Source of the DNA: Phaeospirillum sp.
GTDB taxonomy: Bacteria > Pseudomonadota > Alphaproteobacteria > Rhodospirillales > Magnetospirillaceae
DNA: 46,432 bases
Assembly: GCA_030651575.1 (NCBI GenBank)
Contig: JAUSFB010000038.1
Coordinates: 1 to 46,432 of the forward strand
Direction: 5' to 3'
Of this stretch, positions 3,656-46,432 are shown one piece after another. Below the pieces are notes generated by a model that searched no databases, was not told the DNA's origin, and worked only from the letters and a program-made list of their open reading frames with translations. Numbering within the stretch: the stretch's first letter is position 1; the number at the start of each line of letters is the position of its first letter. Both the position numbers and the translations under genes were made by a program.

Positions 3656-3893
3656 GGACGTCCTCTTTCTGATGAAAAGGCTTACGGAATTAAGGGTTTT
3701 TGCGGCGCTGAACGCCTACAAGCAGTACCTCATATAGGCTGGCGGCCCCGGTTTGCAAAGACGGAAAGGCGCGGGGAACATTGAAATCGGGTAATCCTTG
3801 CCTCCCCGCGTTGCGCAAGGGGGAATCCTGCCCTATGTTCCGGAGAGCGGAGATATGCTCCGGCCTTGGACGGACTACGATAGGGGACAATTC

Positions 3894-5045
3894 ATGCCTT
3901 GGAATCCTCGTGGCGGCGGCGGTGGCGGCCCTTGGGGCGGCGGCGGCGGTGGCAACGGCCCGTGGGGTCGGCCCGGCGGCGGCTCCGGCGGCGGCAATGG
4001 CGGCGGCGGCATGCCGGGAGGCCCCGAGGTCGAGGACTTCATCCGACGCGGCCAGGAAACCCTGCGCCGCATCATGCCCGGCAACGGAATCGGCGGCGGT
4101 CAGGGCTTGGCGGCTCTGGCGGTGTTGGTGGTGGCGGCCTGGGCCTTTACCGGCATCTACAAGGTCAGCCCGGACGAGCAGGGCGTGGTCATGCGCTTTG
4201 GCAAGTGGGTCGACACTACCGAGCCCGGCCTGCATTACCGTCTGCCCTACCCGATCGAGACGGTGCTGCTGCCCAAGGTCACCAAGATCAACCAGTTGCA
4301 GCTGGGCTATCGCTCGGTCGGCGAAACCCGGGGCGAGCGCGGCTCGTCGTCGCGCAACGTCCCCGAGGAAAGCCGCATGCTGACCGGCGACGAGAATATC
4401 GTCGAGGCCGATGCCGCCGTGTTCTGGCGCATCAAGGACGCCGGCAAGTTCCTGTTCAACATCCGCGACCCCGAGGCCACCGTCAAGGTCGCGGCGGAAA
4501 GCTCGCTGCGCGAGGTGGTGGGCCGCAATCCCATCCAGGCCGCGCTGGCGGACAAGCGCGAACAGATCGCCATCCAAGCCCAGGAAGAGCTGCAAAAGCT
4601 GCTCGACACCTACGGCGCAGGCATCCAGGTGCAGCAAGTCCAGTTGCAAAAGGTCGATCCGCCGGCGGCGGTGATCGACGCCTTCAACGACGTGCAGCGC
4701 GCCCGCGCCGATCAGGAGCGCGCCCGCAACGAGGCCGAGGCCTACCGCAACGACATCATTCCCCGCGCCCGCGGCGAGGTCGAACGCATCTCGCAGGAAG
4801 CCCAGGCCTATCGCGAGCAGGTGGTCGATCTGGCCCAGGGTGACGCCCAGCGCTTCCTGGCCCTCTACGGCACCTACAAGCAGGCCGAGGACGTCACCGC
4901 CCGCCGGCTCTATATCGAGTCCATGGAAGAAATCCTCAAAGGCGCCACCAAGATCATCATCGACCCATCGGCCAAGGGAAATCAGGGTGTGGTGCCTTAT
5001 CTGCCGCTGCCCGAAATCAGAAAGAACGCGGGAGGCGCGAAATGA
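3894..5045 (+). CDS. hflK: FtsH protease modulator HflK
   Basis: SPFH/band-7 membrane protein that forms a complex with HflC around the FtsH protease. The product from this start is 383 residues: a Gly/Trp-rich N-terminus (MPWNPRGGGGGGPWGGG), a single membrane segment (about residues 68-85, LAALAVLVVAAWAFTGIY), then the SPFH domain and an Ala/Glu/Arg-rich coiled coil. I chose ATG 3894 over the in-frame ATG at 3798 because MPW-NxxGGGG is the usual HflK start and AGGGGA lies just upstream. The stop overlaps the hflC start (ATGA at 5042-5045), which suggests translational coupling. Confidence 0.95.
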   Translation: MPWNPRGGGGGGPWGGGGGGNGPWGRPGGGSGGGNGGGGMPGGPEVEDFIRRGQETLRRIMPGNGIGGGQGLAALAVLVVAAWAFTGIYKVSPDEQGVVMRFGKWVDTTEPGLHYRLPYPIETVLLPKVTKINQLQLGYRSVGETRGERGSSSRNVPEESRMLTGDENIVEADAAVFWRIKDAGKFLFNIRDPEATVKVAAESSLREVVGRNPIQAALADKREQIAIQAQEELQKLLDTYGAGIQVQQVQLQKVDPPAAVIDAFNDVQRARADQERARNEAEAYRNDIIPRARGEVERISQEAQAYREQVVDLAQGDAQRFLALYGTYKQAEDVTARRLYIESMEEILKGATKIIIDPSAKGNQGVVPYLPLPEIRKNAGGAK

Positions 5046-5914
5046 ACCGCGGTCTACTGATATCGGCCGCCCTGGCCGTGGTGGTCCTGGTGATGGCCAG
5101 TTCGTCGCTGTTCATCGTCAATCAGGCCGAACAGGCCCTGGTTCTGCGCTTCGGCGCCCACCGCGCCACCATCAAGGAGCCCGGCCTGCATGTGAAGCTG
5201 CCGTTCGTCGAGGATGTGGTCCGCTATGACCTGCGCCTGCTGGGCCTTGATCCGCCCGACGAGCAGATCATCCTGGGCGACCAAAAGCGTATCGTGGTCG
5301 ATACCTTCACCCGCTACCGCATCGCCGATCCGCTGAAGTTCTATCAGGCGGTTCGCACCGAAACCCTGGCGCGGGCCCAGTTGGCCCAGATCGTTTCCTC
5401 GGCCATGCGCCGGGTAATGGGTCAGGTGATGCTGCCCTCCATCTTGTCGGAGGAGCGCGCCAAGATCATGGGAGCGATTCAGCAAGACGTCGCCGAGCGG
5501 GCCTTGCGCGAGTTGGGCATTCAGGTGGTGGACGTGCGGTTGCGCCGCGCCGACCTGCCCGAGGAGACCAGCCAGTCCATCTACGACCGCATGAAATCCG
5601 AGCGCGAACGCCAAGCCAAGGAAGCCCGGGCTCAGGGTTACGAGTGGAGCCAGCAAATCCGAGCCCGCGCCGACCGCGAGCGTACGGTGATCCTGGCCGA
5701 GGCCCAGCGTCAGGCCCAGATCGAGCGCGGCGAGGGCGATGCCGAGGCGAATCGCATCTTCGCCGACGCGTTCGGCCGCGACCCGCAATTCTTTGCCCTG
5801 TACCGTTCCTTACAGGCTTACCGCAACGCCCTGGGAGACGGCAACACCACCTTGGTGCTGTCGCCGGACAACGATTTCCTGAAGGTGTTCGGTCACGGCC
5901 CGCGCGGGCGCTAA
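5042..5914 (+). CDS. hflC: FtsH protease modulator HflC
   Basis: Partner of HflK in the membrane complex that regulates FtsH. The 290-residue product has an N-terminal signal anchor (LLISAALAVVVLVMASSSLFIV), an SPFH domain beginning near NQAEQALVLRFGAH, the family stretch MKSERERQAKEARAQGYE in the coiled coil, and the usual C-terminal FFALYRSLQAYRNAL segment. It overlaps hflK by four bases and is followed after 89 bases by degP, the common alphaproteobacterial order hflK-hflC-degP. The 89-base gap holds a long hairpin described separately. Confidence 0.95.
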   Translation: MNRGLLISAALAVVVLVMASSSLFIVNQAEQALVLRFGAHRATIKEPGLHVKLPFVEDVVRYDLRLLGLDPPDEQIILGDQKRIVVDTFTRYRIADPLKFYQAVRTETLARAQLAQIVSSAMRRVMGQVMLPSILSEERAKIMGAIQQDVAERALRELGIQVVDVRLRRADLPEETSQSIYDRMKSERERQAKEARAQGYEWSQQIRARADRERTVILAEAQRQAQIERGEGDAEANRIFADAFGRDPQFFALYRSLQAYRNALGDGNTTLVLSPDNDFLKVFGHGPRGR

Positions 5915-5943
5915 CGGGACCGCAAAGGCCCAGGTCATGGCAA

Positions 5944-5984
5944 GATGGGTTTTTCGGACCGTATCGGCTGCCGGAAAACCCATC
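5944..5984 (+). other. Long hairpin in the hflC-degP intergenic region, ending at the degP ribosome binding site
   Basis: Arms 5944-5957 (GATGGGTTTTTCGG) and 5971-5984 (CCGGAAAACCCATC) pair over 14 bases with one G-U, leaving a 13-base loop. The hairpin ends two bases before the strong Shine-Dalgarno AAGGAGGA at 5987-5994. There is no U-tract after it, so it does not look like an intrinsic terminator. A processing site, mRNA stabiliser or translation-modulating leader are possible roles. The structure is read directly and the role is inference. Confidence 0.6.
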
Positions 5985-6003
5985 GGAAGGAGGATTTGAT
6001 CCG

Positions 6004-7527
6004 GTGTTCATCTCCAAGATAAAGACCCAGACTGCCGGTCCGCGCATTCTGTTCGCCGGGCTGGCGCTGTGCGCCGTCCTGTTCGCATCGGACGCCAAGG
6101 CCACCACGCCGCCGGGCAGCTTCGCCGATCTGGCGGAGCGGTTGCTGCCCAGCGTGGTCAACATCTCCACCACCCAGACCATCAAGAATCCCCAGGGTGG
6201 GCTGGAAATGCCGCAATTCCCGCCAGGCTCGCCGCTGGAGGAGTTCTTCAAGGAGTTCCTCGAACGTCAGCAAGGCGGCGGCGGCGGGCGTCCCGACGCG
6301 CCGGCCCGCAAGGCCACCTCGCTGGGCTCGGGCTTTATCATCGACCCCGCCGGCTATATCGTGACCAACAACCACGTCATCGCCGACGCCGACGAAATCA
6401 GCATCAAGCTGCATGACGATTCGGTGTTCTCCGCCACGGTGGTGGGCCGCGACCCCAAGGTCGACCTCGCCCTGCTCAAGATCGATCCCGGCAAAAAACC
6501 CCTGGTCGCGGTCGCCTTCGGCAATTCCGACGAGGCGCGGGTGGGCGACTGGGTGCTGGCCATCGGCAATCCCTTTGGTTTCGGCGGCACCGTCACCGCC
6601 GGCATCGTCTCGGCACGCGCCCGCGACATTAACGCCGGTCCCTACGACGACTTCATCCAAACCGACGCCCCCATCAACCGGGGCAATTCCGGCGGCCCCA
6701 TGTTCAACATGAAGGGCGACGTCATCGGCATCAACTCGGCCATCATCTCGCCATCGGGCGGCTCCATCGGCATCGGCTTCGCCATTCCGGCTTCGCTGGC
6801 CATGCCCGTGCTGGACGATCTGCGCAAGCATGGCAAGGTGCGGCGCGGCTGGCTGGGGGTTCGCATCCAGTCGCTGGACGCCGACATGGCCGAAAATATC
6901 GGCCTCGCCGACCAGCACGGCGCCCTGGTGGCCAAGGTCGATCCCGCCGGCCCCGGCATGAAGGCCGGCATGAAGGACGGCGACGTTGTGCTGAAGTTCG
7001 ACGGCAAGGACATCAACGAGATGCGCCGCCTGCCGCGTTACGTGGCCGGCACTCCCATCGGCAAGAAGGTCGATGTGCTGATCTGGCGCGACGGCAAGAA
7101 GCTGACCATCCCGGTGACGGTGGGCGAACTGCCCGAGGACCCGGCCGAACAACTGGCCAAGGGCGGCAAGACCGAACAGCCCAAGACGGCTCCGGGCAAG
7201 GACGGCGTCCTGGTCATTCCGGGCTCTGGGATGGCCGTGTCGCAGCTGACTCCGCAAATACGCGAGCGTTTCGGCATCGACGACGAGTCCAAGGGTGTGG
7301 TGGTGATCGAGGTCAAGACCGACTCGCCCGCCGCCGAAAAGGGCCTGCGCCCCGGCGACCTCATCATCGAGGCCGATCACAAGCCGGTCCGCGCCCCCCA
7401 GGACCTCGCCAAGCAGATCGACGACGCCCGCAAGGCTGGGGCCAAGTCACTGCTGCTGCGGGTCGAAAATCCCCAGCAACTGCGCTACGTGGCGCTGTCG
7501 CTGGCCGAGGGCAAGGCCAAGAAGTAG
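6004..7527 (+). CDS. degP: Periplasmic serine protease/chaperone of the DegP/HtrA (MucD) type
   Basis: Degrades or refolds misfolded envelope proteins. From the GTG at 6004 the product is 507 residues: a signal sequence (ILFAGLALCAVLFASDAKA), a trypsin-like domain with the triad His124 (TNNHV), Asp154 (VDLALLKID) and Ser229 (NRGNSGGP), then two PDZ domains (about 285-370 and 415-500). The GTG is chosen because AAGGAGGA lies nine bases before it and because it starts right before the signal peptide; the frame stays open much further upstream through hflC, which is a shadow. It belongs to the hflK-hflC unit, so membrane and periplasmic protein quality control are encoded together. Confidence 0.94.
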   Translation: MFISKIKTQTAGPRILFAGLALCAVLFASDAKATTPPGSFADLAERLLPSVVNISTTQTIKNPQGGLEMPQFPPGSPLEEFFKEFLERQQGGGGGRPDAPARKATSLGSGFIIDPAGYIVTNNHVIADADEISIKLHDDSVFSATVVGRDPKVDLALLKIDPGKKPLVAVAFGNSDEARVGDWVLAIGNPFGFGGTVTAGIVSARARDINAGPYDDFIQTDAPINRGNSGGPMFNMKGDVIGINSAIISPSGGSIGIGFAIPASLAMPVLDDLRKHGKVRRGWLGVRIQSLDADMAENIGLADQHGALVAKVDPAGPGMKAGMKDGDVVLKFDGKDINEMRRLPRYVAGTPIGKKVDVLIWRDGKKLTIPVTVGELPEDPAEQLAKGGKTEQPKTAPGKDGVLVIPGSGMAVSQLTPQIRERFGIDDESKGVVVIEVKTDSPAAEKGLRPGDLIIEADHKPVRAPQDLAKQIDDARKAGAKSLLLRVENPQQLRYVALSLAEGKAKK

Positions 7528-39076: not shown

Positions 39077-39652
39077 TCAGCGCAAGCCGAACATGCGGTT
39101 CAGGGTCCGGTGGCCGGCCAACTGATGCAACAGGCCAAGCAGGGGATGGACGATCAGATAGGCCCACATCAGCGGCGCCATGGCCTCGTGAACCTCCTTG
39201 ACCGTGCGCAACGACGGCGACAATCCGCCGTTCGGGGCGGCTCCGACCGCCAGGGCGGTTCCGGTGGCCGCCATGAACAGCGCGATCAGCAATCCGCCGC
39301 CTTGAACCGCCGCCGGCAGCGGTCGGGTCTGCGAACCATCGGGCAACCGCCCCCGGACTCCCTCCCCGACCGTCTCCGCGATGTCGGCGCGCAGCTCCGA
39401 CAGCCGCCCCCGCGAGAACCAGGGGAACAGCATCAACGCCTCGCCGCGCATCACGCCGCGCCCGACCACCCACAGCCAGTAGAGGCTGGTCACGCCCAGC
39501 AGGCCGATGCCGATCAACTCGTGAACGCCGTACCACTCATTGGGCAAGCGCCCGGGTTTCGGGTGAATCATCACCAGACTGGTCACCATCTGCGAAGTGA
39601 CGCCAACTGCGACAAGCAGATGCAAGATGCGGGTCAGCGGGTCATATTTCAT
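39077..39652 (-). CDS. Cytochrome b561-type membrane protein
   Basis: 191 residues, four helices of the prokaryotic b561/Ni-Fe-hydrogenase cytochrome b class: TRILHLLVAVGVTSQMVTSL with one His, WYGVHELIGIGLLGVTSLYWLW with a second, GGLLIALFMAATGTALAVG, and VHEAMAPLMWAYLIVHPLLGLLHQL with further His. These His residues can coordinate two hemes that carry electrons across the membrane. A cytoplasmic insert of about 50 residues separates helices 2 and 3. AGGAG precedes the ATG. It follows the 39662 gene by nine bases and shares its control region. Confidence 0.82.
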   Translation of the reverse strand: MKYDPLTRILHLLVAVGVTSQMVTSLVMIHPKPGRLPNEWYGVHELIGIGLLGVTSLYWLWVVGRGVMRGEALMLFPWFSRGRLSELRADIAETVGEGVRGRLPDGSQTRPLPAAVQGGGLLIALFMAATGTALAVGAAPNGGLSPSLRTVKEVHEAMAPLMWAYLIVHPLLGLLHQLAGHRTLNRMFGLR

Positions 39653-39661
39653 GGCGCGCTC

Positions 39662-40135
39662 CTAATGGCTCGGGGATTGCCAGCCGGGATGGGCGAAGAA
39701 TCGGCCATAGGACGAAATGGCGTCGATCACCATGACGACCCCGTCCTGCGCCTTGCGCTCCGTCTTCATGTGCTCGACGCCGTCCATGATCCGGGCCAAC
39801 ACCAGATGAAGCTGGGCGTCGGCCTCGGGCGGCAGCTTGCAATTGGCGGTCACGTATTCAATCCGGGCGGAAATCCCGTTGGCCAACCGGGAAAACTCGG
39901 CCGCGTCGAACCGGCCGTCATGGATCCGTGGCGCGGCATCGGCCATGAGGTCGCGGATTTCGGACATGCCGTGGCGAAGGGCGCCGTCGGTCGGCCATTG
40001 CCGGCCGTGGTCAAGCGTCGGCTCCGATTGGGCCGCGCCATGGGAGGCGTGGCCATGGTCGGCGGCAAAAGCGCCGCCGATGGCCGAAACTCCCAGGCCG
40101 GCGGCGATCAGTAGTGCGAGAACAGTGTGATTCAT
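39662..40135 (-). CDS. Exported helical His-containing protein of the b561/SHP locus, function unknown
   Basis: 157 residues from ATG 40135 with AAAGGAG upstream (a TTG at 40156 is less likely). A signal peptide (TVLALLIAAGLGVSAIGGAFA) precedes ADHGHASHG and a predicted helical bundle (RHGMSEIRDLMADAAPRIHDG; ARIEYVTANCKLPPEADAQLHLVLARIMDGVEHM). No CxxCH is present, so any heme or metal would be bound non-covalently. The 40-bp element described at 40178 lies 43 bases upstream of the start codon. I do not recognise a named family. Confidence 0.78.
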   Translation of the reverse strand: MNHTVLALLIAAGLGVSAIGGAFAADHGHASHGAAQSEPTLDHGRQWPTDGALRHGMSEIRDLMADAAPRIHDGRFDAAEFSRLANGISARIEYVTANCKLPPEADAQLHLVLARIMDGVEHMKTERKAQDGVVMVIDAISSYGRFFAHPGWQSPSH

Positions 40136-40177
40136 GAGGGTACGTGCTCCTTTCAAACGTCAAGATAGTCATGCCCA

Positions 40178-40217
40178 CCTGAACCGGATCTGACTCGTTC
40201 GTTCATCCTGGGTTCAG
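40178..40217 (-). promoter_or_regulatory. 40-bp element, copy 1, upstream of the 39662/39077 operon
   Basis: Reads CCTGAACC (40178-40185), CTGAC (40190-40194), CGTTCAT (40200-40206) and CTGGGTTCAG (40208-40217). The same blocks with the same spacing recur at 41774-41813, with 31 of 40 positions equal. The ends form an imperfect inverted repeat (CCTGAACC with GGTTCAG). It lies in the 92-base gap between the diheme cytochrome gene and the 40135 start. Binding by the adjacent OmpR-type regulator is inferred. Confidence 0.75.
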
Positions 40218-40227
40218 GTTGGCTTTA

Positions 40228-40701
40228 TCAATCGTCGTCGTACAAACCCCGGTCGGCGCCCATATGGCAGGCGGGGCAGTTGGACTTGGTCACCACCTTG
40301 GGGTCCTGCCAGACCTTGTCGGCAAAGCGGTGCTTGCGCTCGAAATCCGGGTTGGCGGTGATCCGCTGCGGCGTGGCGCCGGGATTGACCCATTGCATGT
40401 ATTTACGGGCGCGCCCCTTGGTCACCACATCGCCGGCATTGGCGGTCATGTAGTCGCGGATGATTTTGGCCTTGTCGGCAGGCAGGCTGGCGTCCTCGTC
40501 GAAGTGCTTGTCCAGTTCGTTCATCATGCGGTCCCAGGACCGGGCCGGCAGAAAGGCGGGCTGGAACGCCATGTGACAGGCGCCGCATTCTTTTTGCACG
40601 ACGGCGTCCGTGACCGGTGGAACCCAGTCGTTGCCGCCGGCCAAAGCCGGAGTGGCCACCAGCAGCGCCGCCGCGAGGGAGAAGATAATCCGCATGATCA
40701 T
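40228..40701 (-). CDS. dhc: Diheme cytochrome c (DHC type)
   Basis: 157 residues from ATG 40701, which overlaps the SHP gene stop (ATGA at 40698-40701). A signal peptide (MRIIFSLAAALLVATPALA) then two heme sites, CGACH (38-42) and CPACH (about 143-147), separated by the DHC-typical LPARSWDRMMNELDKHFDEDASL. DHC passes electrons from a membrane cytochrome b to SHP in the known three-gene clusters. The C-terminus is acidic (LYDDD). Confidence 0.9.
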   Translation of the reverse strand: MIMRIIFSLAAALLVATPALAGGNDWVPPVTDAVVQKECGACHMAFQPAFLPARSWDRMMNELDKHFDEDASLPADKAKIIRDYMTANAGDVVTKGRARKYMQWVNPGATPQRITANPDFERKHRFADKVWQDPKVVTKSNCPACHMGADRGLYDDD

Positions 40702-41117
40702 TGCCCCGCCATGAAGGTGATGTAGTCGCCTTTTTCGATCGGGGAGCACTCGCGCCCGATCACGCTTTTACAATCCCGGCCGAACTGCTTTTCCACCTCG
40801 GCCATATCGGTGAAGCGTTTAGGCGTGACCGACACCGCCACCGGCTCGATGGGGCGGCCGGTCTTGGCGTTCTGGCCGGCCGTCTTGGGATTGTCGGTAT
40901 GGCAGGCGGTGCAAGACGGGGTGCGGGCGTCGCCCCCGGTCCATTTGGCGCGGAACAGGCTTTCTCCGCGCTGGGCCGAAAATCCGGTGAAGGCGGGATC
41001 AACCTTGCGAGCCTGACCGGCGTAATCGGCCAAAATGGTGTCGCGGCGGGCGTCTGCGGCCATGGCAGCGGCCGGCAGGGCAATCATAAGGCCGACCATG
41101 AGAAGGGGACGGATCAT
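40698..41117 (-). CDS. shp: SHP-type monoheme cytochrome c (DUF1924)
   Basis: 139 residues from ATG 41117, which overlaps the cytochrome b stop. A signal peptide (MVGLMIALPAAAMA) precedes ADYAGQARKVDPAFTGFSAQRGESLF, the DUF1924 signature, and the heme motif CTACH at 69-73. The two late Cys (FGRDCKSVIGRECSP) fit the SHP disulphide. SHP (Rhodobacter sphaeroides heme protein) has a labile Asn heme ligand and binds O2 or NO when reduced. It lies in a cyt b-shp-dhc order with four-base overlaps. Confidence 0.92.
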   Translation of the reverse strand: MIRPLLMVGLMIALPAAAMAADARRDTILADYAGQARKVDPAFTGFSAQRGESLFRAKWTGGDARTPSCTACHTDNPKTAGQNAKTGRPIEPVAVSVTPKRFTDMAEVEKQFGRDCKSVIGRECSPIEKGDYITFMAGQ

Positions 41118-41590
41118 TGGATGTTCTCCTTGGAAAATCGGATGCCGGACAATTCCTGCCCGATACGGTTCAGCAGCCGCTTGCCGCCGTAGATAAAGGC
41201 GACGAAGGCCACATGGCCGCCGATCACCCAAAGGGAGGTCTGGGCGATGACTTCATGCGGGTCTTCCAGCCACGGAAGACCATCGGCAAGCGCGCCGGAG
41301 ATCGCGGCGAGGCCGACCCCGGCCAGCAGAGCCGCCGCCAGCCAGCCGAACAGCGGATGGCGCCCCTTTCTGGCCCAGTCCAGGGTGGGACGCGGCAGGC
41401 GCAGCGGGCTGGCGGTTGGGGCGAACGCCCCCACCAGCAACCGGACGACGATGGCCGCCAGCACTGCATAGCCGGCGAACAGATGCATGGCGTAGGTGTC
41501 CTCGTCCGCCGTCACATAGGCGACGAGGAAGGCCCCGGCCACCCAGGCGTGCCAGAGCTTCAGCAAGGTATGATGGAGCTTGGTCGACAT
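41114..41590 (-). CDS. Cytochrome b561-type membrane protein of the SHP operon
   Basis: 158 residues with four helices (LLKLWHAWVAGAFLVAYVTA; YAMHLFAGYAVLAAIVVRLLVGAF; FGWLAAALLAGVGLAAISGAL; SLWVIGGHVAFVAFIYGGKRLL) whose His residues fit the b561 heme sites. It is the membrane quinol-side partner expected for DHC and SHP. It begins 12 bases after the stop of the small ORF at 41603-41728 and its stop overlaps the shp ATG. Confidence 0.9.
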   Translation of the reverse strand: MSTKLHHTLLKLWHAWVAGAFLVAYVTADEDTYAMHLFAGYAVLAAIVVRLLVGAFAPTASPLRLPRPTLDWARKGRHPLFGWLAAALLAGVGLAAISGALADGLPWLEDPHEVIAQTSLWVIGGHVAFVAFIYGGKRLLNRIGQELSGIRFSKENIQ

Positions 41591-41602
41591 GATCGTTCTC
41601 GC

Positions 41603-41728
41603 TCAGTCGTGATGGCCGGTGACGGTCGGCAGGGCGAGTCCGGCCCCCCGCGTCTGGGCATAGACGGCGGCGGCCGATCCGATCAGGATGGCGGCGACCA
41701 GGCAGTGGATCAGCATTTTTCCGAGCAT
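41603..41728 (-). CDS. Small leading ORF of the SHP operon (41 residues)
   Basis: Too short for usual gene calls. ATG at 41728 is preceded five bases away by a perfect AAGGAGG (41734-41740). The product is MLGKMLIHCLVAAILIGSAA, then VYAQTRGAGLALPTVTGHHD, with stop TGA at 41603-41605. It reads as a signal peptide with a probable AYA-Q-like cleavage (VYA/Q), leaving a 17-residue mature peptide ending His-His-Asp, or as a single-pass membrane peptide. It is the first gene downstream of the 40-bp element copy 2 and heads the cytochrome b-shp-dhc operon. I do not recognise a family. Confidence 0.72.
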   Translation of the reverse strand: MLGKMLIHCLVAAILIGSAAAVYAQTRGAGLALPTVTGHHD

Positions 41729-41773
41729 CGCATCCTCCTTGGGTCTCGATGTCGGCCAGAGTACTCAAACCAG

Positions 41774-41813
41774 CCTGAACCAAGACTGACCGGCCCGTTC
41801 ATGCTGGGTTCAG
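41774..41813. promoter_or_regulatory. 40-bp element, copy 2, in the divergent gap of the SHP and PepSY-regulator operons
   Basis: Reads CCTGAACC (41774-41781), CTGAC (41786-41790), CGTTCAT (41796-41802) and CTGGGTTCAG (41804-41813), with the same block spacing as copy 1. It ends 24 bases before the PepSY start and begins 45 bases upstream of the small ORF start, so it can serve both directions. Confidence 0.78.
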
Positions 41814-41837
41814 ACTTCGGGGCCTAGGATTCAAGCC

Positions 41838-42164
41838 ATGACATACGCTCCGCTCATCCTGGCCGCCCTGATCGCCTTCACGGCTGGACCGGCCCTTGCC
41901 AGCGACGGCCACGGCCGCAGTCACGATCACGACCGCGCCCGCCGCGCCGTCGAGGAGGGCCGCATCCTGCCGCTGAAAGAAATTCTGAACCGGGCCGAAA
42001 CGGCTTATCCTGGACAACTGATCGAAGCGGAACTGGAGGATGATGACGGCCCCCTGGTCTACGAGATCAAGATGCTGACCAAGGATGGTCGCCTGATGAA
42101 GCTGCTCTACGACGCCCAGACCGGCGAATTGATCAAGGCCAAAAGCCGGGACAACCGGCGATGA
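41838..42164 (+). CDS. Exported PepSY-domain protein
   Basis: 108 residues. A signal peptide (PLILAALIAFTAGPALA) precedes a His-rich strip (SDGHGRSHDHD) and a PepSY domain (GRILPLKEILNRAETAYPGQ; EIKMLTKDGRLMKLLYDAQTGEL). Such proteins are often encoded before PhoPQ-type two-component genes and may modulate the kinase from the periplasm. The stop overlaps the response regulator ATG (42161-42164). Confidence 0.9.
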   Translation: MTYAPLILAALIAFTAGPALASDGHGRSHDHDRARRAVEEGRILPLKEILNRAETAYPGQLIEAELEDDDGPLVYEIKMLTKDGRLMKLLYDAQTGELIKAKSRDNRR

Positions 42165-42829
42165 GAGTGTTGGTGATCGAGGACGAGCCGACCCTGGCCT
42201 TCCGCCTGCAACAGGTGCTGGAGGCGGCAGGTTTTGTCGTAGACGTCGCCTATGACGGCGAGGAGGGCTGCCATCTGGGCGATACCGAGCCCTATGACGC
42301 CGTCGTCCTCGACCTCGGCCTGCCCAGGATCGATGGCGTCACCGTGCTGCAACGCTGGCGCGAAGCGGGCCGCGCCATGCCGGTGATGATCTTGACGGCG
42401 CGCGGCCGCTGGTCCGAAAAAATGGCGGGATTCAACGCCGGCGCCGACGACTACATGACCAAGCCGTTCGAGATGGAGGAAGTGGTCTATCGCCTGCGCG
42501 CCCTGATCCGGCGGGCGGCGGGCCATTCCCAGCCGGAACTGGTCTGCGGCGCGGTGCGGCTCGACACCAATAGCGGCCGGGTCACGCTGGACGGCGTTCC
42601 GATCCAGATGACCGCACAGGAATTCCGCATCCTGTCTTATTTCATGCACCATCCGGGGCGGATCGTCAGCCGCACCGAGCTGATGGAGCATGTCTACGAC
42701 CGCCACTTCGACAGCGATTCCAACGTGCTTGAGGTCCTGCTGGGACGGATCCGCAAAAAAGTCGGGGCCGAACTGATTCAGACCGTGCGCGGCCAGGGCT
42801 ATCGCATGGTGGAGCAGCGGGGGCAATGA
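42161..42829 (+). CDS. OmpR-family response regulator
   Basis: 222 residues. A receiver with the acidic pair (VIEDEPT) and acceptor Asp in AVVLDLGLP, near 51, then ILTARG and the KPF lysine, followed by a winged-helix domain (about 128-220; LTAQEFRIL-like QMTAQEFRILSYF and RIRKKVG). It is of the QseB/PhoP group. The 40-bp element copies upstream of the cytochrome operons are its likely targets. Overlaps both neighbours by four bases. Confidence 0.93.
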   Translation: MRVLVIEDEPTLAFRLQQVLEAAGFVVDVAYDGEEGCHLGDTEPYDAVVLDLGLPRIDGVTVLQRWREAGRAMPVMILTARGRWSEKMAGFNAGADDYMTKPFEMEEVVYRLRALIRRAAGHSQPELVCGAVRLDTNSGRVTLDGVPIQMTAQEFRILSYFMHHPGRIVSRTELMEHVYDRHFDSDSNVLEVLLGRIRKKVGAELIQTVRGQGYRMVEQRGQ

Positions 42830-44148
42830 CCGCCTCCCTCTCCGCCCGTCTGGTGGCTGGGGCGCTGATCTGGCTGGTGGTCATGCTGGCGATGGGCGGC
42901 GGCGTCCTGACCCTGGCCTTCCGCAATACCGTCGAGCAGGAGTTCAGCCATCGCCTGGACGCCATGCTGCGGGCGATGATCGCCGCCACCGAGATCGGCC
43001 CCGATGGAGCCGTCATTACCATGCGGCCCCTGGGCGATCCGCGCTTCGACCAGATCTTTTCCGGCTGGTACTGGCAGGTGACGGAGCCGTCTGGGCGTCA
43101 GCTCCGCTCGCGCTCCCTGTGGGACAGCGTCCTGGACTCCGCCGATGGCGGCACGGAATTGCGCACCCGCCACATGGACGGCCCCCAGGGCGAACCCCTG
43201 CTGGTGGCCGAGCGCGACCTGCGCTTTCCCGAAGCCAGCGGCCCGGTCCACCTGCTGATCGCCGGCGACCTGCGCGAGGTGCGCGAGGGAGTGCGGCGCT
43301 TCGACCTGCTGCTGGGATCGGCCCTGGGGCTGCTGGGCGGCGGATTGGTCATCGCCATCCTGATTCAGGTCCGGTTCGGCCTGCGCCCGCTGCGGGCCAT
43401 GGCGCATGATCTGAATGCGGTCCGCCAGGGCGAGCGCGACCGGCTGCCAGAGGGCTACCCACGCGAGGTCGCCCCCCTGGCCGAAGCCATGAACGGCGTG
43501 CTCGATAAGGACGCCGAGCTGATCGAGCGGGCGCGGACCCATGTGGGCAATCTGGCCCACGGCCTGAAAACACCGCTGGCCATCGTCGCCGCCGAAATGG
43601 CCGACCACCCGGACAAGACGGTGGTGGCCGAACAGGTGGAAGCCATGCGCCGGCTGATCGAACACCACCTGGGCCGCGCCTCGGCGGTGGCCGGAGCCGG
43701 ACGGGTGCTGGGCGGCAAGGTGGCGGTGCGCGAGGTCGCCCAGGCCATCGCCGGCGTATTGGCCCGCGTCTTCGCCGATCGGGACCTTGCCTTCGACATC
43801 GACCTTCCCGCCACGGCCGCTTTCCGGGGACAGCGCGAGGATCTGGAAGAGATCCTGGGCAATCTGATGGAGAACGCCTGCAAATGGGCGGTCGGCCGGA
43901 TCAGGGTGTCGGGCGGCGGCGGCCCGGCCGGGCTGACCCTGTCGGTGGAGGATGACGGGCCGGGGATGCCGCCCGAACTGACCGCCGAGGCGTCCCAGCG
44001 GGGGCGCCGTCTCGATGAGATGGCCCCGGGCTGGGGCCTGGGCCTGTCCATCGTGTCCGATCTGGTGCAGGTCAATGGCGGCGCGATGGACTTTTCCCGC
44101 TCCGATCTCGGCGGCCTTGCCGTCACCATCCGGATGCCGCCCCGCTGA
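42826..44148 (+). CDS. Membrane sensor histidine kinase (PhoQ/QseC type)
   Basis: 440 residues. Helix 1 (LVAGALIWLVVMLAMGGGVLTLAF), a periplasmic domain (about 35-160), helix 2 (LLGSALGLLGGGLVIAILIQV), HAMP, HisKA with HVGNLAHGLKTPLAIV (His near 245), and an ATPase domain with NLMENACKWA, DDGPGMP and GWGLGLSIVSDLV. It ends the PepSY-regulator-kinase operon, divergent from the SHP operon. The stimulus is not known; the PepSY partner and the cytochromes suggest a redox or gas signal. Confidence 0.92.
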   Translation: MTASLSARLVAGALIWLVVMLAMGGGVLTLAFRNTVEQEFSHRLDAMLRAMIAATEIGPDGAVITMRPLGDPRFDQIFSGWYWQVTEPSGRQLRSRSLWDSVLDSADGGTELRTRHMDGPQGEPLLVAERDLRFPEASGPVHLLIAGDLREVREGVRRFDLLLGSALGLLGGGLVIAILIQVRFGLRPLRAMAHDLNAVRQGERDRLPEGYPREVAPLAEAMNGVLDKDAELIERARTHVGNLAHGLKTPLAIVAAEMADHPDKTVVAEQVEAMRRLIEHHLGRASAVAGAGRVLGGKVAVREVAQAIAGVLARVFADRDLAFDIDLPATAAFRGQREDLEEILGNLMENACKWAVGRIRVSGGGGPAGLTLSVEDDGPGMPPELTAEASQRGRRLDEMAPGWGLGLSIVSDLVQVNGGAMDFSRSDLGGLAVTIRMPPR

Positions 44149-44234: not shown

Positions 44235-44535
44235 ATCGTCGATTTCCATGGATATTTTATGTAACAATTGCACTTCTGGGTATCTGACACTGCTGGTCGA
44301 CGTGTTCAGTCGATGCATCTTGGGTTGCTGCTTGACCCTTGAAAAGCCAAAAGTTCTGTCGGTTGCGATCTGTCTTGCCCACGCAATCTGCCCCAAGAAC
44401 GAATGGATGAAAGCGCTTGGCTTGGCCGATTTTTCCTGGCCACCGTATGGGCGGCCCAAGAAGATTCTAACCGACAGTGGCAAGGACTTTCGGAGCGATG
44501 CATTCGTGCAAGACTGTGAGGATTTCGGCATCGCA
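44235..44535 (+). mobile_element. Remnant of a Mu/TniA-family DDE transposase
   Basis: From about 44248 the frame reads LTLLVDVFSRCILGCCLTLEKP, SVAICLAHAICPKNEWMKALGL, then [32 protein letters not shown]. This is the rve/DDE core of TniA- or IS481/Mu-type transposases, with the second catalytic Asp in LTDSGKDF. The N-terminus is missing (stop at 44233-44235), the part past the central core including the last Glu is missing, and no terminal repeats are visible. The stretch 44160-44450 is richer in A and T than the flanks, which fits foreign DNA. Ends in an abrupt junction with another coding fragment. Confidence 0.75.
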
Positions 44536-44728
44536 TTGGGCCGGCGAAACCGCGGTCGGGCTGCGGGAACTGGGAACCGCCAGGACCGGGGCCTACTTCT
44601 CCACCGCCCCGTTCGTGGCGGCCTTCGCCGGACGCGCCTATGGTGGGATCTATATCCTGACTTCGCTGGTTTGGCTGTGGCTGGTGGAGGGCCATCGCCC
44701 CGACCGTCCTGATTTCGGGGCGTCATGA
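44536..44728 (+). pseudogene. Fused remnants of an EamA/DMT permease and a YnfA-family protein
   Basis: After the transposase fragment, the frame continuing to TGA at 44726 reads [19 protein letters not shown], typical of the last-helix region of EamA/DMT permeases, then [25 protein letters not shown] and [11 protein letters not shown], typical of the C-terminal half of YnfA (UPF0060). The first is missing both ends and the second lacks its N-terminal half and its last helix. The join of the two is near 44613. This looks like a deletion scar; neither product can be functional. The stop overlaps the end of the MerR gene. Confidence 0.68.
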
Positions 44729-45115
44729 CGCCAGAGCGTCGATGATGCGGCATTCGGCGACGGTTCCGGCACAACAGCGCGCCATCTCGCGCAGCGCATC
44801 CCGCAGTCGCCCCAATTCCTCGATCTTGCGCTCGACCTCGGCCAGATGCGCCGCAGTCATGCGGTCGGCATCCTCGCACGGTTGCTCGGGATGCTCGGCC
44901 AGACGCAACAGCGCCCGGATCGCCTCGATACTGAAGCCGAGATCGCGTCCCTTGCGGATGAAGGACAGCCGCCGCAGATGCTCCTCGCCATATTGGCGAT
45001 AGCCCGCCGATGTCCGATCCGGTTCGGGCAACAGAGCGATGCGCTCGTAATAGCGGATGGTCTCGATATTGACGCCGGTCGCCTTGCCGAGCGCCCCGAT
45101 GCTGATCATCTTCAT
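44723..45115 (-). CDS. MerR-family metal-responsive regulator (CadR/ZntR-like)
   Basis: About 130 residues from ATG 45115 (ATGs at 45118 and 45109 are also possible; frame open to 45154). The winged-helix part is [23 protein letters not shown], then the dimer helix ending near the RCCAG metal loop. Cys residues fit the metal-sensing pattern: PCEDA, then [11 protein letters not shown] close to the C-terminus. It is divergent from the CDF gene and its operator lies in the 66-base gap. Metal specificity (Cd/Pb/Zn/Hg) cannot be read with certainty. Confidence 0.9.
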
Positions 45116-45123
45116 CATGGCGC

Positions 45124-45144
45124 TTGACCCTGTAGCCGCTACAG
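45124..45144 (+). promoter_or_regulatory. MerR-type promoter with dyad operator for the CDF gene
   Basis: A -35-like TTGACC at 45124-45129 is followed directly by the dyad CTGTAGCCGCTACAG (45130-45144). A CATCAT hexamer at 45149-45154 gives a 19-base spacer, the long spacing that MerR-family activators twist into an active form. The dyad resembles the CadR/PbrR operator core. The CDF ATG is at 45182. Confidence 0.75.
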
Positions 45145-45181
45145 ACCCCATCATATCCTGGAATGAGTCCGGGAGGTAGGT

Positions 45182-45817
45182 ATGGGCGCAAGCTGCTGCC
45201 AGGGTGGATGTCAGACCCCGTCGGACGGGGCAGGGCCGCGTTTCCGTCGGGCATTGTGGGCCGCGCTGGTGATCAATGCCGGGATGTTCGTGGTCGAGAT
45301 CGTCGCGGGCATGGCGGCGGGATCGTCTGCGCTACAGGCGGATTCCCTGGACTTCCTCGGGGATGCCGCCAATTACGGCGTCAGCCTGTTCGTGCTGGGG
45401 ATGAGTCTGCGCCACCGGGCACGGGCATCGGTGCTGAAGGGGGCGACCATGGGGGCGTTCGGCCTGTGGGTGGTCGTCAACACCACCCTCCATCTGGTCA
45501 ACGGCACCGTCCCGGAAGCGGAGATGATGGGCATTGTCGGCGTTGTCGCCCTGATCGCCAATGGAGCGGTAGCGGTCATGCTGTATGCCTTCCGCGAGGG
45601 CGACAGCAACATGCGCTCGGTGTGGATCTGCTCGCGCAACGACGCCATCGGCAATATCGCCGTCCTGGCCGCCGCCAGCGGTGTCTTCGCCACCGGCTCG
45701 GGCTGGCCCGATTTCGCCGTGGCGGGGATCATGGCCGCCCTGGCTCTGAGCGGGGCGTTCCAGGTTCTGCGCCACGCTTTTGCCGAGTTGCGCTACTCCC
45801 CCATCGTGCAAGGATAG
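45182..45817 (+). CDS. Short CDF-type cation transporter with atypical metal-site residues
   Basis: 211 residues with GGGAGG upstream. The N-terminus is Cys-rich (MGASCCQGGC), then five or six helices (LWAALVINAGMFVVEIVAGM; ADSLDFLGDAANYGVSLFVLGM; VICSRND-like WICSRNDAIGNIAVLAAASG). In canonical CDF proteins helix 2 and helix 5 each carry HxxxD or DxxxD. Here helix 2 has D-LD-FLGD (Asp in place of the usual His) and helix 5 has C-SRN-D (Cys in place of His). The C-terminal metallochaperone-like domain is missing, so it is much shorter than CzcD/ZitB. Divergent from the MerR gene, so probably metal-induced efflux. Confidence 0.85.
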   Translation: MGASCCQGGCQTPSDGAGPRFRRALWAALVINAGMFVVEIVAGMAAGSSALQADSLDFLGDAANYGVSLFVLGMSLRHRARASVLKGATMGAFGLWVVVNTTLHLVNGTVPEAEMMGIVGVVALIANGAVAVMLYAFREGDSNMRSVWICSRNDAIGNIAVLAAASGVFATGSGWPDFAVAGIMAALALSGAFQVLRHAFAELRYSPIVQG

Positions 45818-46281
45818 GCCTTGCGGATATAGACGATGAAGGCCTGCGGCGCGCTCAGCCGGAATACGTCATCTACCCCCCTCCGGTTAAGATCTTCGGC
45901 CCATTCGATGAAGCCGCTGACCAAGTCCTGATCCTTCACCATGGGAGGTAAGCAGACCAGCCTCTCTTGGTACATGGGGGCCATGACCCGGATGGTCTCG
46001 ATAATGGCTGCCGTTGCCGCGAGGCATTTGGTTCCGCTGCTGACGACGTCGATATCTTCCTGGGACAGGGGGCGCTTGCCCAGTTCTCCGTTGAGCGCCA
46101 TGAGTTTCTTGACGTCTCCGCATAACCCCAGCAGTCGCGATAGAGGCAGTTTGCGGGTATTAGCCAAATGCTCTCGTGTCGGGGCTGATGATTCTCGCAT
46201 CGACCCGGCCTGTTCCCGCGCGGAAACAGACCAGGGCAGCAGCACGGCACAAACGGCAAGCACGGCAAGTCGAGCAAACAC
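45793..46281 (-). CDS. Exported Cys-containing protein, possibly Rap1a/Tai-like
   Basis: About 162 residues from a GTG at 46281, chosen because the signal peptide (VFARLAVLAVCAVLLPWSVSA) begins there and AGAAGG lies just upstream; the frame is open to 46422 across the RND gene end. The mature protein has Cys in GLCGD, GTKCLAA, LVCLPP and AYPC. This spacing, with a helical core and a final YPC, resembles Rap1a/Tai immunity-like domains, which I give only as a possibility. It converges on the CDF gene with a 25-base overlap and follows the RND gene by 11 bases. Confidence 0.6.
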   Translation of the reverse strand: MFARLAVLAVCAVLLPWSVSAREQAGSMRESSAPTREHLANTRKLPLSRLLGLCGDVKKLMALNGELGKRPLSQEDIDVVSSGTKCLAATAAIIETIRVMAPMYQERLVCLPPMVKDQDLVSGFIEWAEDLNRRGVDDVFRLSAPQAFIVYIRKAYPCTMGE

Positions 46282-46292
46282 GGGAGGCCTTC

Positions 46293-46432
46293 TCACAGCA
46301 TGTCCGCCGAGCGGCGGCGCAGCGTGTCGTGCTGGCGCAACTCCCGCCGGATCGCCCCAAAGCGCAGGTAGAGGGCGGGCACCACCACCATGTTCAGAGC
46401 GGTGGAGGACACCAAACCGCACAGGATGACCA
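46293..46432 (-). CDS. Heavy-metal RND efflux pump (CusA/CzcA type), C-terminal end only
   Basis: The minus-strand frame from the window edge reads VILCGLVSSTALNMVVVPALYLRFG, the last membrane helix of CusA/CzcA-family inner-membrane pumps, then a short basic tail (RRELRQHDTLRRRSADML) and TGA at 46293-46295. The rest lies outside the window. It belongs with the MerR and CDF genes to a metal-resistance region; the metal cannot be told from this fragment. Confidence 0.85.
   Translation of the reverse strand, partial: VILCGLVSSTALNMVVVPALYLRFGAIRRELRQHDTLRRRSADML

Follow-up and report, generated by a model that had tools for sequence, protein, structure and literature searches.

Results

Genes around the twin elements

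The window analysed here is a 46,432-nucleotide contig of Phaeospirillum sp. (JAUSFB010000038.1), in which two neighbouring gene sets carry copies of a shared element. On the forward strand, a gene for a PepSY-domain protein of 108 amino acids (41838-42164; Pfam PF03413) opens an operon, and its reading frame overlaps the start of the gene for an OmpR-family response regulator (42161-42829; PF00072 and PF00486, with orthologues in related genomes), the proposed binder of the element. A sensor kinase gene follows (42826-44148), assigned to the SK1 class by its motifs SGWYWQ and RSRSLWD, the latter invariant in the 16 kinase sequences compared. The regulator came nearest to three NCBIfam equivalogs, all below cut-off (PmrA, 193.9 of 330 bits; QseB, 183.9 of 345; PhoP, 175.9 of 336), and its identification as PhoP, PmrA or QseB proper was rejected on those scores. 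It matches the regulators of seven family genomes from other genera at 77-86%, compared with 69-72% within its own genus, a hint that the locus may have been exchanged horizontally. Beyond the kinase (44248-46432), reading frames judged by eye resemble a transposase remnant, a MerR-type regulator (44723-45154, reverse strand) and a cation-efflux-like protein (45182-45817, forward strand).

The operon on the reverse strand probably begins with a 41-amino-acid reading frame whose translation has a signal-peptide-like start (41603-41728), located between the second element copy and a gene for a cytochrome b561-like membrane protein (cytb1, 41114-41590; PF01292 below cut-off, 26.7 against 30.1 bits). 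Reading frames of 55-107 amino acids with similar starts and Asp/His-rich ends occupy the same place at six other loci (L117, L120, L121, L123, L129 and L137). Next come a DUF1924 protein, which we take to be SHP (40698-41117), and a dihaem cytochrome c, DHC (40228-40695; PF09626). SHP is an oxygen-binding cytochrome c whose role is unsettled. Further along the same strand lie a His-containing protein of 157 amino acids counted from its ATG (39662-40135, hereafter 39662) and, behind it, a second cytochrome b561 (cytb2, 39077-39652; PF01292), whose homologues have the element upstream. For 39662 a four-helix bundle is predicted (mean pLDDT 81, folded from an alignment omitting the homologues at L145 and L150). 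The model found no PDB match at an E value of 0.001 or better (best 0.11), and the sequence has no family in Pfam or PHROGs, with one sub-threshold N-terminal match in NCBIfam (20.3 against 50 bits).

Anatomy of the element

The original prediction described two 40-bp elements, one before each cytochrome unit, with four conserved blocks at equal spacing and freely differing bases between them. Ungapped alignment of copy 1 (40178-40217) and copy 2 (41774-41813), neither assigned a strand, gives the 31 of 40 matches that had been claimed, at the coordinates given, and the four blocks are as described. In copy 1 they read CTGAAC (40179-40184), CTGACT (40190-40195), GTTCAT (40201-40206) and GTTCAG (40212-40217); in copy 2, CTGAAC (41775-41780), CTGACC (41786-41791), GTTCAT (41797-41802) and GTTCAG (41808-41813). 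Each copy thus follows CTGAAC-N5-CTGACY-N5-GTTCAT-N5-GTTCAG, four hexamers on a single 11-bp period, with the hexamers conserved separately and the gap bases free. Since about 0.1 pairs of 40-mers this good are expected by chance (ungapped, both strands, at the size and base composition of the window), the twin pair alone is only mildly unusual and weak evidence.

Absent from the original prediction is that both copies are near-palindromic, copy 2 being identical to its own reverse complement at 30 of 40 positions. Because the first two hexamers are of the GTTCA type on the other strand, the element can be read as two direct-repeat boxes, GTTCA-N6-GTTCA, set back to back. Copy 2 lies between two divergent units, and the two copies would therefore serve three promoters. 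Copy 1 lies past the end of the DHC gene (stop at 40228) and has a gene start facing it on the left alone. Of its two arms, the one directed at 39662 is the weaker (AGTCAG-N5-GTTCAG, a box score of 10/12 with a weak distal half-site), and the perfect arm is directed at the 3' end of DHC, facing no gene start and lacking a -10-like hexamer (CAATCG at that offset).

Promoter layout

In three outward directions within the window a -10-like hexamer, predicted from its position, begins exactly 11 bp past the box. These are TATCTT (40162-40167, reverse strand) beyond the outer hexamer of copy 1 toward 39662, TACTCT (41758-41763, reverse strand) beyond copy 2 toward the SHP operon, and TAGGAT (41825-41830, forward strand) beyond copy 2 toward the PepSY-regulator-kinase operon, with 7 nt separating it from the ATG. 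The same distance was found in a survey of 58 distinct elements with a core of at least 15/16, whose 116 arms are related sequences and not independent. TANNNT stood at offset 11 in 47 of the 116 arms, compared with at most 4 at every other offset from 0 to 17, and across all arms offset 12 was A in 87% and offset 16 was T in 80%. Counted by element, the strict hexamer at offset 11 was present in both arms of 9, one arm of 29 and neither arm of 20. Toward the PepSY gene, the distance from the -10 to the ATG is 6-8 nt in 18 of 21 cases, window included; in the other three, left uncounted, the start came out as TTG or GTG and falls no later than the last base of the -10. From this spacing, a leaderless mRNA is predicted for the regulator operon.

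Occurrence in the genome and the family

The 16-position core is perfect at two places only in the 4.23-Mb genome, as a search for further copies proposed in the original prediction revealed, and the next best place has 3 mismatches. A search with just the right arm, allowing up to 2 mismatches, was too noisy to name targets (129 places in this genome versus 58 for the reversed control), and the seven places at 1 mismatch lack the -10 pattern. Across the family, the core is found at 0-1 mismatch in 38 of 55 genomes, and the reversed pattern in none of the 55. The placement of copy 2 between the SHP and PepSY-regulator-kinase operons, as originally noted, is the usual one: at 19 of 21 loci around primary copies (L100 and L120-L139) the dyad is flanked by a cytochrome/SHP operon on one side and a PepSY-regulator-kinase operon on the other. 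Of the remaining two, L137 has the SHP operon but no adjoining regulator genes, and L138 lacks both operons and sits among TIR- and PurL-like genes.

The element co-occurs with the regulator

Among the 36 family genomes covered by both searches, the element is present in 24/24 with an orthologue of the 42161 regulator (best E below 1e-80) and in 1/12 without (Fisher 2e-8), and part of this co-occurrence is linkage. The single genome with the element and no detected orthologue, G028, carries it at L138, where there is no PepSY or regulator gene. In another genome, G026, the two operons, SHP (L117) and regulator (L060), are on different contigs, each with its own site.

SHP loci from a wider search separate the two candidates for what the element belongs to. 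A class-wide DUF1924 search gave 12 of 385 genomes, including our own, and nine others have SHP and DHC; not counted below are the window itself and L282 and L283, two weak DUF1924 hits that showed no SHP, DHC or regulator match by tblastn. Where such a regulator lies near the SHP locus the element is present (2/2), and where it does not the element is absent (0/7; Fisher 0.028). L274 has a 12/12 box and a 14/16 dyad, and L281, with two dyads of 15/16, repeats the twin arrangement, one dyad preceding PepSY-regulator-kinase and the other cytb1-SHP-DHC. Because none of the seven loci without the regulator has a dyad above 12/16 in the stretch fetched, we reject the reading of the element as a property of SHP operons as such; a 10/12 box does occur somewhere within 10-15 kb at three of them.

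Genes behind the element

The original prediction tied 39662 and the second b561 to the SHP system, and comparison supports this. By protein search, homologues of 39077 occur in 15 of 55 genomes (E 1e-20) and those of 39662 in 11 of 55, the window included in both counts. A single box with its -10 stands upstream of seven of ten homologues of 39662 (L143-L149), at 11 or 12 of 12 positions and matched by 0 of 100 resamples in each case. An eighth, L150, has a 10/12 box and a 14/16 dyad; the other two, L141 and L142, have no box upstream. Among the 13 nearest cytb2 homologues (L152-L164), several of them unlinked, 12 have a dyad of at least 14/16 or a box of at least 11/12. One of these 12, L158, coincides with the regulator locus; the exception is L152, whose dyad is degraded (12/16). 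For the six distant cytb2 matches (L165-L169 and lower), no element was present in the five loci fetched.

From the other direction, 20 loci were fetched mainly for second copies of the element (L100-L119). In L100, L101, L104, L105 and L108-L111 a cytb2 homologue lies behind it, directly or with one small gene between. The other twelve have PepSY_2 proteins, FGE-sulfatase-domain proteins, a cupredoxin-like protein, chemoreceptors, the SHP operon (L117), the regulator operon (L119) or nothing telling.

Some of these neighbours deserve mention in their own right. A perfect core in L102 (3882-3918) precedes a small cupredoxin-like gene (4063-4374; PF13473) that adjoins a gene for 1058 amino acids, presumably an RND transporter from the look of its start. 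Secreted-looking FGE-sulfatase-domain proteins are found behind the element in L102 (5824-6627) and L107 (4289-5068), in the latter with a PepSY_2 gene intervening. Genes of 664-666 amino acids stand behind it in three genomes of one genus (L112, 2018-4018; L113, 1940-3934; L114, 4104-6098), and the L112 product is a chemoreceptor with HAMP and MCP signalling domains. In L100, a P-type ATPase with a C-terminal hemerythrin domain (3765-6056) lies between DHC and the second element copy.

The box in the wider kinase family

A kinase profile search extended the comparison to the best 80 of 510 loci, which are mostly alpha- and betaproteobacterial, with one record titled as a gammaproteobacterium. 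Seventy-one were assessable, the other nine lacking either a regulator match next to the kinase or enough upstream sequence. In 59 of these 71 (from the best 80 of 510), the DNA upstream of the regulator contains a box with nAnnnT that reaches 10/12 or better, compared with 0.7% of first-order Markov resamples, and in 38 one of at least 11/12, compared with no resample, in keeping with the autoregulation originally proposed. In the remaining 12 the score stays below 10/12, and these include the gammaproteobacterial record (9/12). Dyads of at least 15/16 occur, within the same best 80 of 510, in records of Aromatoleum, Achromobacter, Azospirillum, Magnetovibrio and Candidatus Accumulibacter, among others.

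The strength of the second arm varies with the orientation of the upstream gene. With 17 loci lacking an upstream gene call omitted from the 59 that have a box of at least 10/12 (again from the best 80 of 510), a strong second arm was found 12 times where the upstream gene is divergent and 0 times where it is on the same strand, and a weaker arm 6 and 24 times, respectively. Given this association, we regard the single box as the unit and the dyad as its divergent form.

Discussion

We propose that the two elements are operators of the 42161 response regulator, and put the probability of this at roughly 85%. That they are regulatory sites of a small autoregulated regulon reaching 39662 and 39077, as first suggested from the letters of the window, gains support from their conservation, the fixed distance to the -10 and the co-occurrence with orthologues of this regulator. 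Binding, dependence on phosphorylation, and activation rather than repression are what we infer from these patterns. In our model the basic site is GTTCA-N6-GTTCA, to which the regulator, once phosphorylated, would bind as a dimer in tandem arrangement, bringing in RNA polymerase. The second hexamer ends 11 bp before the -10 and so would replace the -35, as in PhoP-type promoters. Two such boxes placed back to back, in the same 11-bp phase across the centre, would provide four half-sites in a dyad able to fire both ways. From copy 2, transcription would then run leftward into the SHP-cytochrome operon and rightward into the PepSY-regulator-kinase operon, the latter amounting to positive autoregulation, and from copy 1 into the 39662-39077 unit. 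By analogy with FeuN and DbfQ, the PepSY protein probably acts in the periplasm to hold the kinase in check. As for the signal, metal, redox or envelope stress would be our guess, given the target genes and the relatives of the system.

It is unlikely that the elements bind some other regulator, such as a different paralogue of the OmpR family or a palindrome-recognising dimeric repressor, with the 42161 regulator a mere neighbour. The near-palindromic form would suit such a protein, binding by the 42161 regulator is itself a prediction, and G028 has the element with no orthologue detected. Direct repeats of 11-bp period are, however, the usual site of the OmpR family, and the dyad is missing from all seven SHP loci that have no such regulator. 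Moreover, many loci (among the best 80 of 510) have the direct-repeat box without a second arm upstream of the regulator, and homologues of 39662 are likewise preceded by it. The existence of these single boxes led us to reject a palindrome-reading repressor as the main reading.

A shade less probable still is that the 42161 regulator does bind, yet represses the three promoters until its signal arrives. The sequence does not show directly whether the effect is positive or negative, which leaves room for this, but a box ending 11 bp before the -10 has the position of activating PhoP boxes (PMC3335776, in excerpt), the layout needs no good -35, and the related dbfQRS operon is positively autoregulated (PMC12714742, in excerpt). 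That the resemblance is due to chance, or to terminator-like or repeat sequence, is very improbable: the modest expectation for such pairs in the window and the location of copy 1 after a gene end would allow it, whereas the family count against the reversed control, the separately conserved hexamers with free gaps and the -10-like hexamer at a fixed distance all oppose it.

Beyond the candidate operator, it is possible, and we suggest it tentatively, that one grammar is common to the PepSY/FeuPQ (SK1) systems of alpha- and betaproteobacteria, namely GTTCA-N6-GTTCA followed 11 bp later by a -10 of the form nAnnnT. The four-site form would then be a symmetric divergent switch in which two regulator dimers fire the SHP operon and the regulator's own operon from one complex. 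The regulator side would be leaderless, such that the feedback arm and the output arm differ by translation, and SHP, the second b561 and 39662 would belong to one periplasmic response pathway. Were this shared grammar true, the box would be a search key for missing parts of that pathway.

The regulation of SHP was previously inferred from gene order (PMC2909971, in excerpt), and a sequence-defined candidate operator makes the regulon testable. It also extends that regulon to the second b561 and to 39662, a so far unstudied four-helix protein, and the box with its fixed -10 offers a way of picking out candidate targets in further genomes with the regulator. The kind of site, a TTCA-N7-TTCA box in a PhoP-type layout, is already known. 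What appears to be new is the putative four-site divergent operator, the conserved boxes that mark SHP and b561 genes as candidate targets, and the leaderless mRNA predicted for the regulator. Among the matches listed from the openly licensed literature, titles and the starts of abstracts contain no description of this operator in front of an SHP operon.

Comparison with known systems

Two known operators resemble the element in layout. In Salmonella, activating PhoP boxes lie 12 nt from the -10, or 11 nt in one promoter (PMC3335776, in excerpt), and the three predicted promoters here likewise have a direct-repeat box in direct orientation, at 11 bp, as in PhoP architecture I. The half-site sequence is different, and the window regulator falls below the NCBIfam cut-off for PhoP. 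The BqsR operator of Pseudomonas aeruginosa, TTAAG-N6-TTAAG with one pentamer overlapping the -35, shares the two pentamers and the 6-bp gap, and a BqsR promoter with four pentamers is described in which two are only additive (PMC4682146, in excerpt). The half-site in the window is TTCA-based, unlike the BqsR pentamer, and this motif mismatch excludes both a BqsR operator and a UzcR operator (CATTAC-N6-TTAA).

The FeuNPQ system of Sinorhizobium meliloti is close in its motif. TTCA-N7-TTCA is its candidate FeuP site, found also upstream of feuN (PMC3616915, in excerpt), a gene adjoining feuPQ whose periplasmic product binds and restrains the kinase FeuQ (PMC12486126, in excerpt). The GTTCA-N6-GTTCA box contains this motif with equal spacing and half-site, taking the S. 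meliloti side from its published description, and it is present in copies 1 and 2 and upstream of the regulator in the 59 of 71 loci (best 80 of 510) mentioned above. The known FeuP targets include the glucan exporter gene ndvA rather than cytochromes, and the excerpts of both papers make no mention of a four-site divergent form (PMC3616915; PMC12486126). On the regulator side, the comparison covered a Phyllobacterium regulator (L226), to which the window regulator is 61% identical over 216 amino acids, against 37-40% for its own paralogues. The L226 regulator lies upstream of ccm genes, and the small protein there has no Pfam match. feuPQ are linked to cycHJKL.

The gene order of the regulator operon, with a PepSY gene beside those for regulator and kinase, is that of dbfQRS in Vibrio cholerae, where the PepSY protein DbfQ binds the DbfS sensor and favours its phosphatase activity (PMC12714742, in excerpt). 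That operon is positively autoregulated, and in the window the box lies upstream of the corresponding operon. Its outputs differ, being biofilm, metabolism, motility and envelope genes, and its operator is undescribed in the excerpts of that paper (PMC12714742).

The closest counterpart in gene content is the SK1/SHP arrangement of Meyer, Kyndt and Cusanovich (2010), who recognised SK1 by two periplasmic motifs, SGVYWQ-like and RSRSLWD, and by an adjacent Orf1, and inferred a divergent promoter in Rhodospirillaceae from gene order (PMC2909971, in excerpt). There, as here, an SHP-DHC-cytochrome b operon is divergent from Orf1-regulator-SK1, and the kinase motifs are alike, the window kinase having SGWYWQ as a variation, RSRSLWD, and a PepSY gene upstream. 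The excerpts of that paper include neither an operator nor the unit of 39662 and the second b561 (PMC2909971), both of which our analysis would add. The candidate operator may join SK1/SHP, FeuNPQ and DbfQRS, three lines that the available parts of these papers treat separately.
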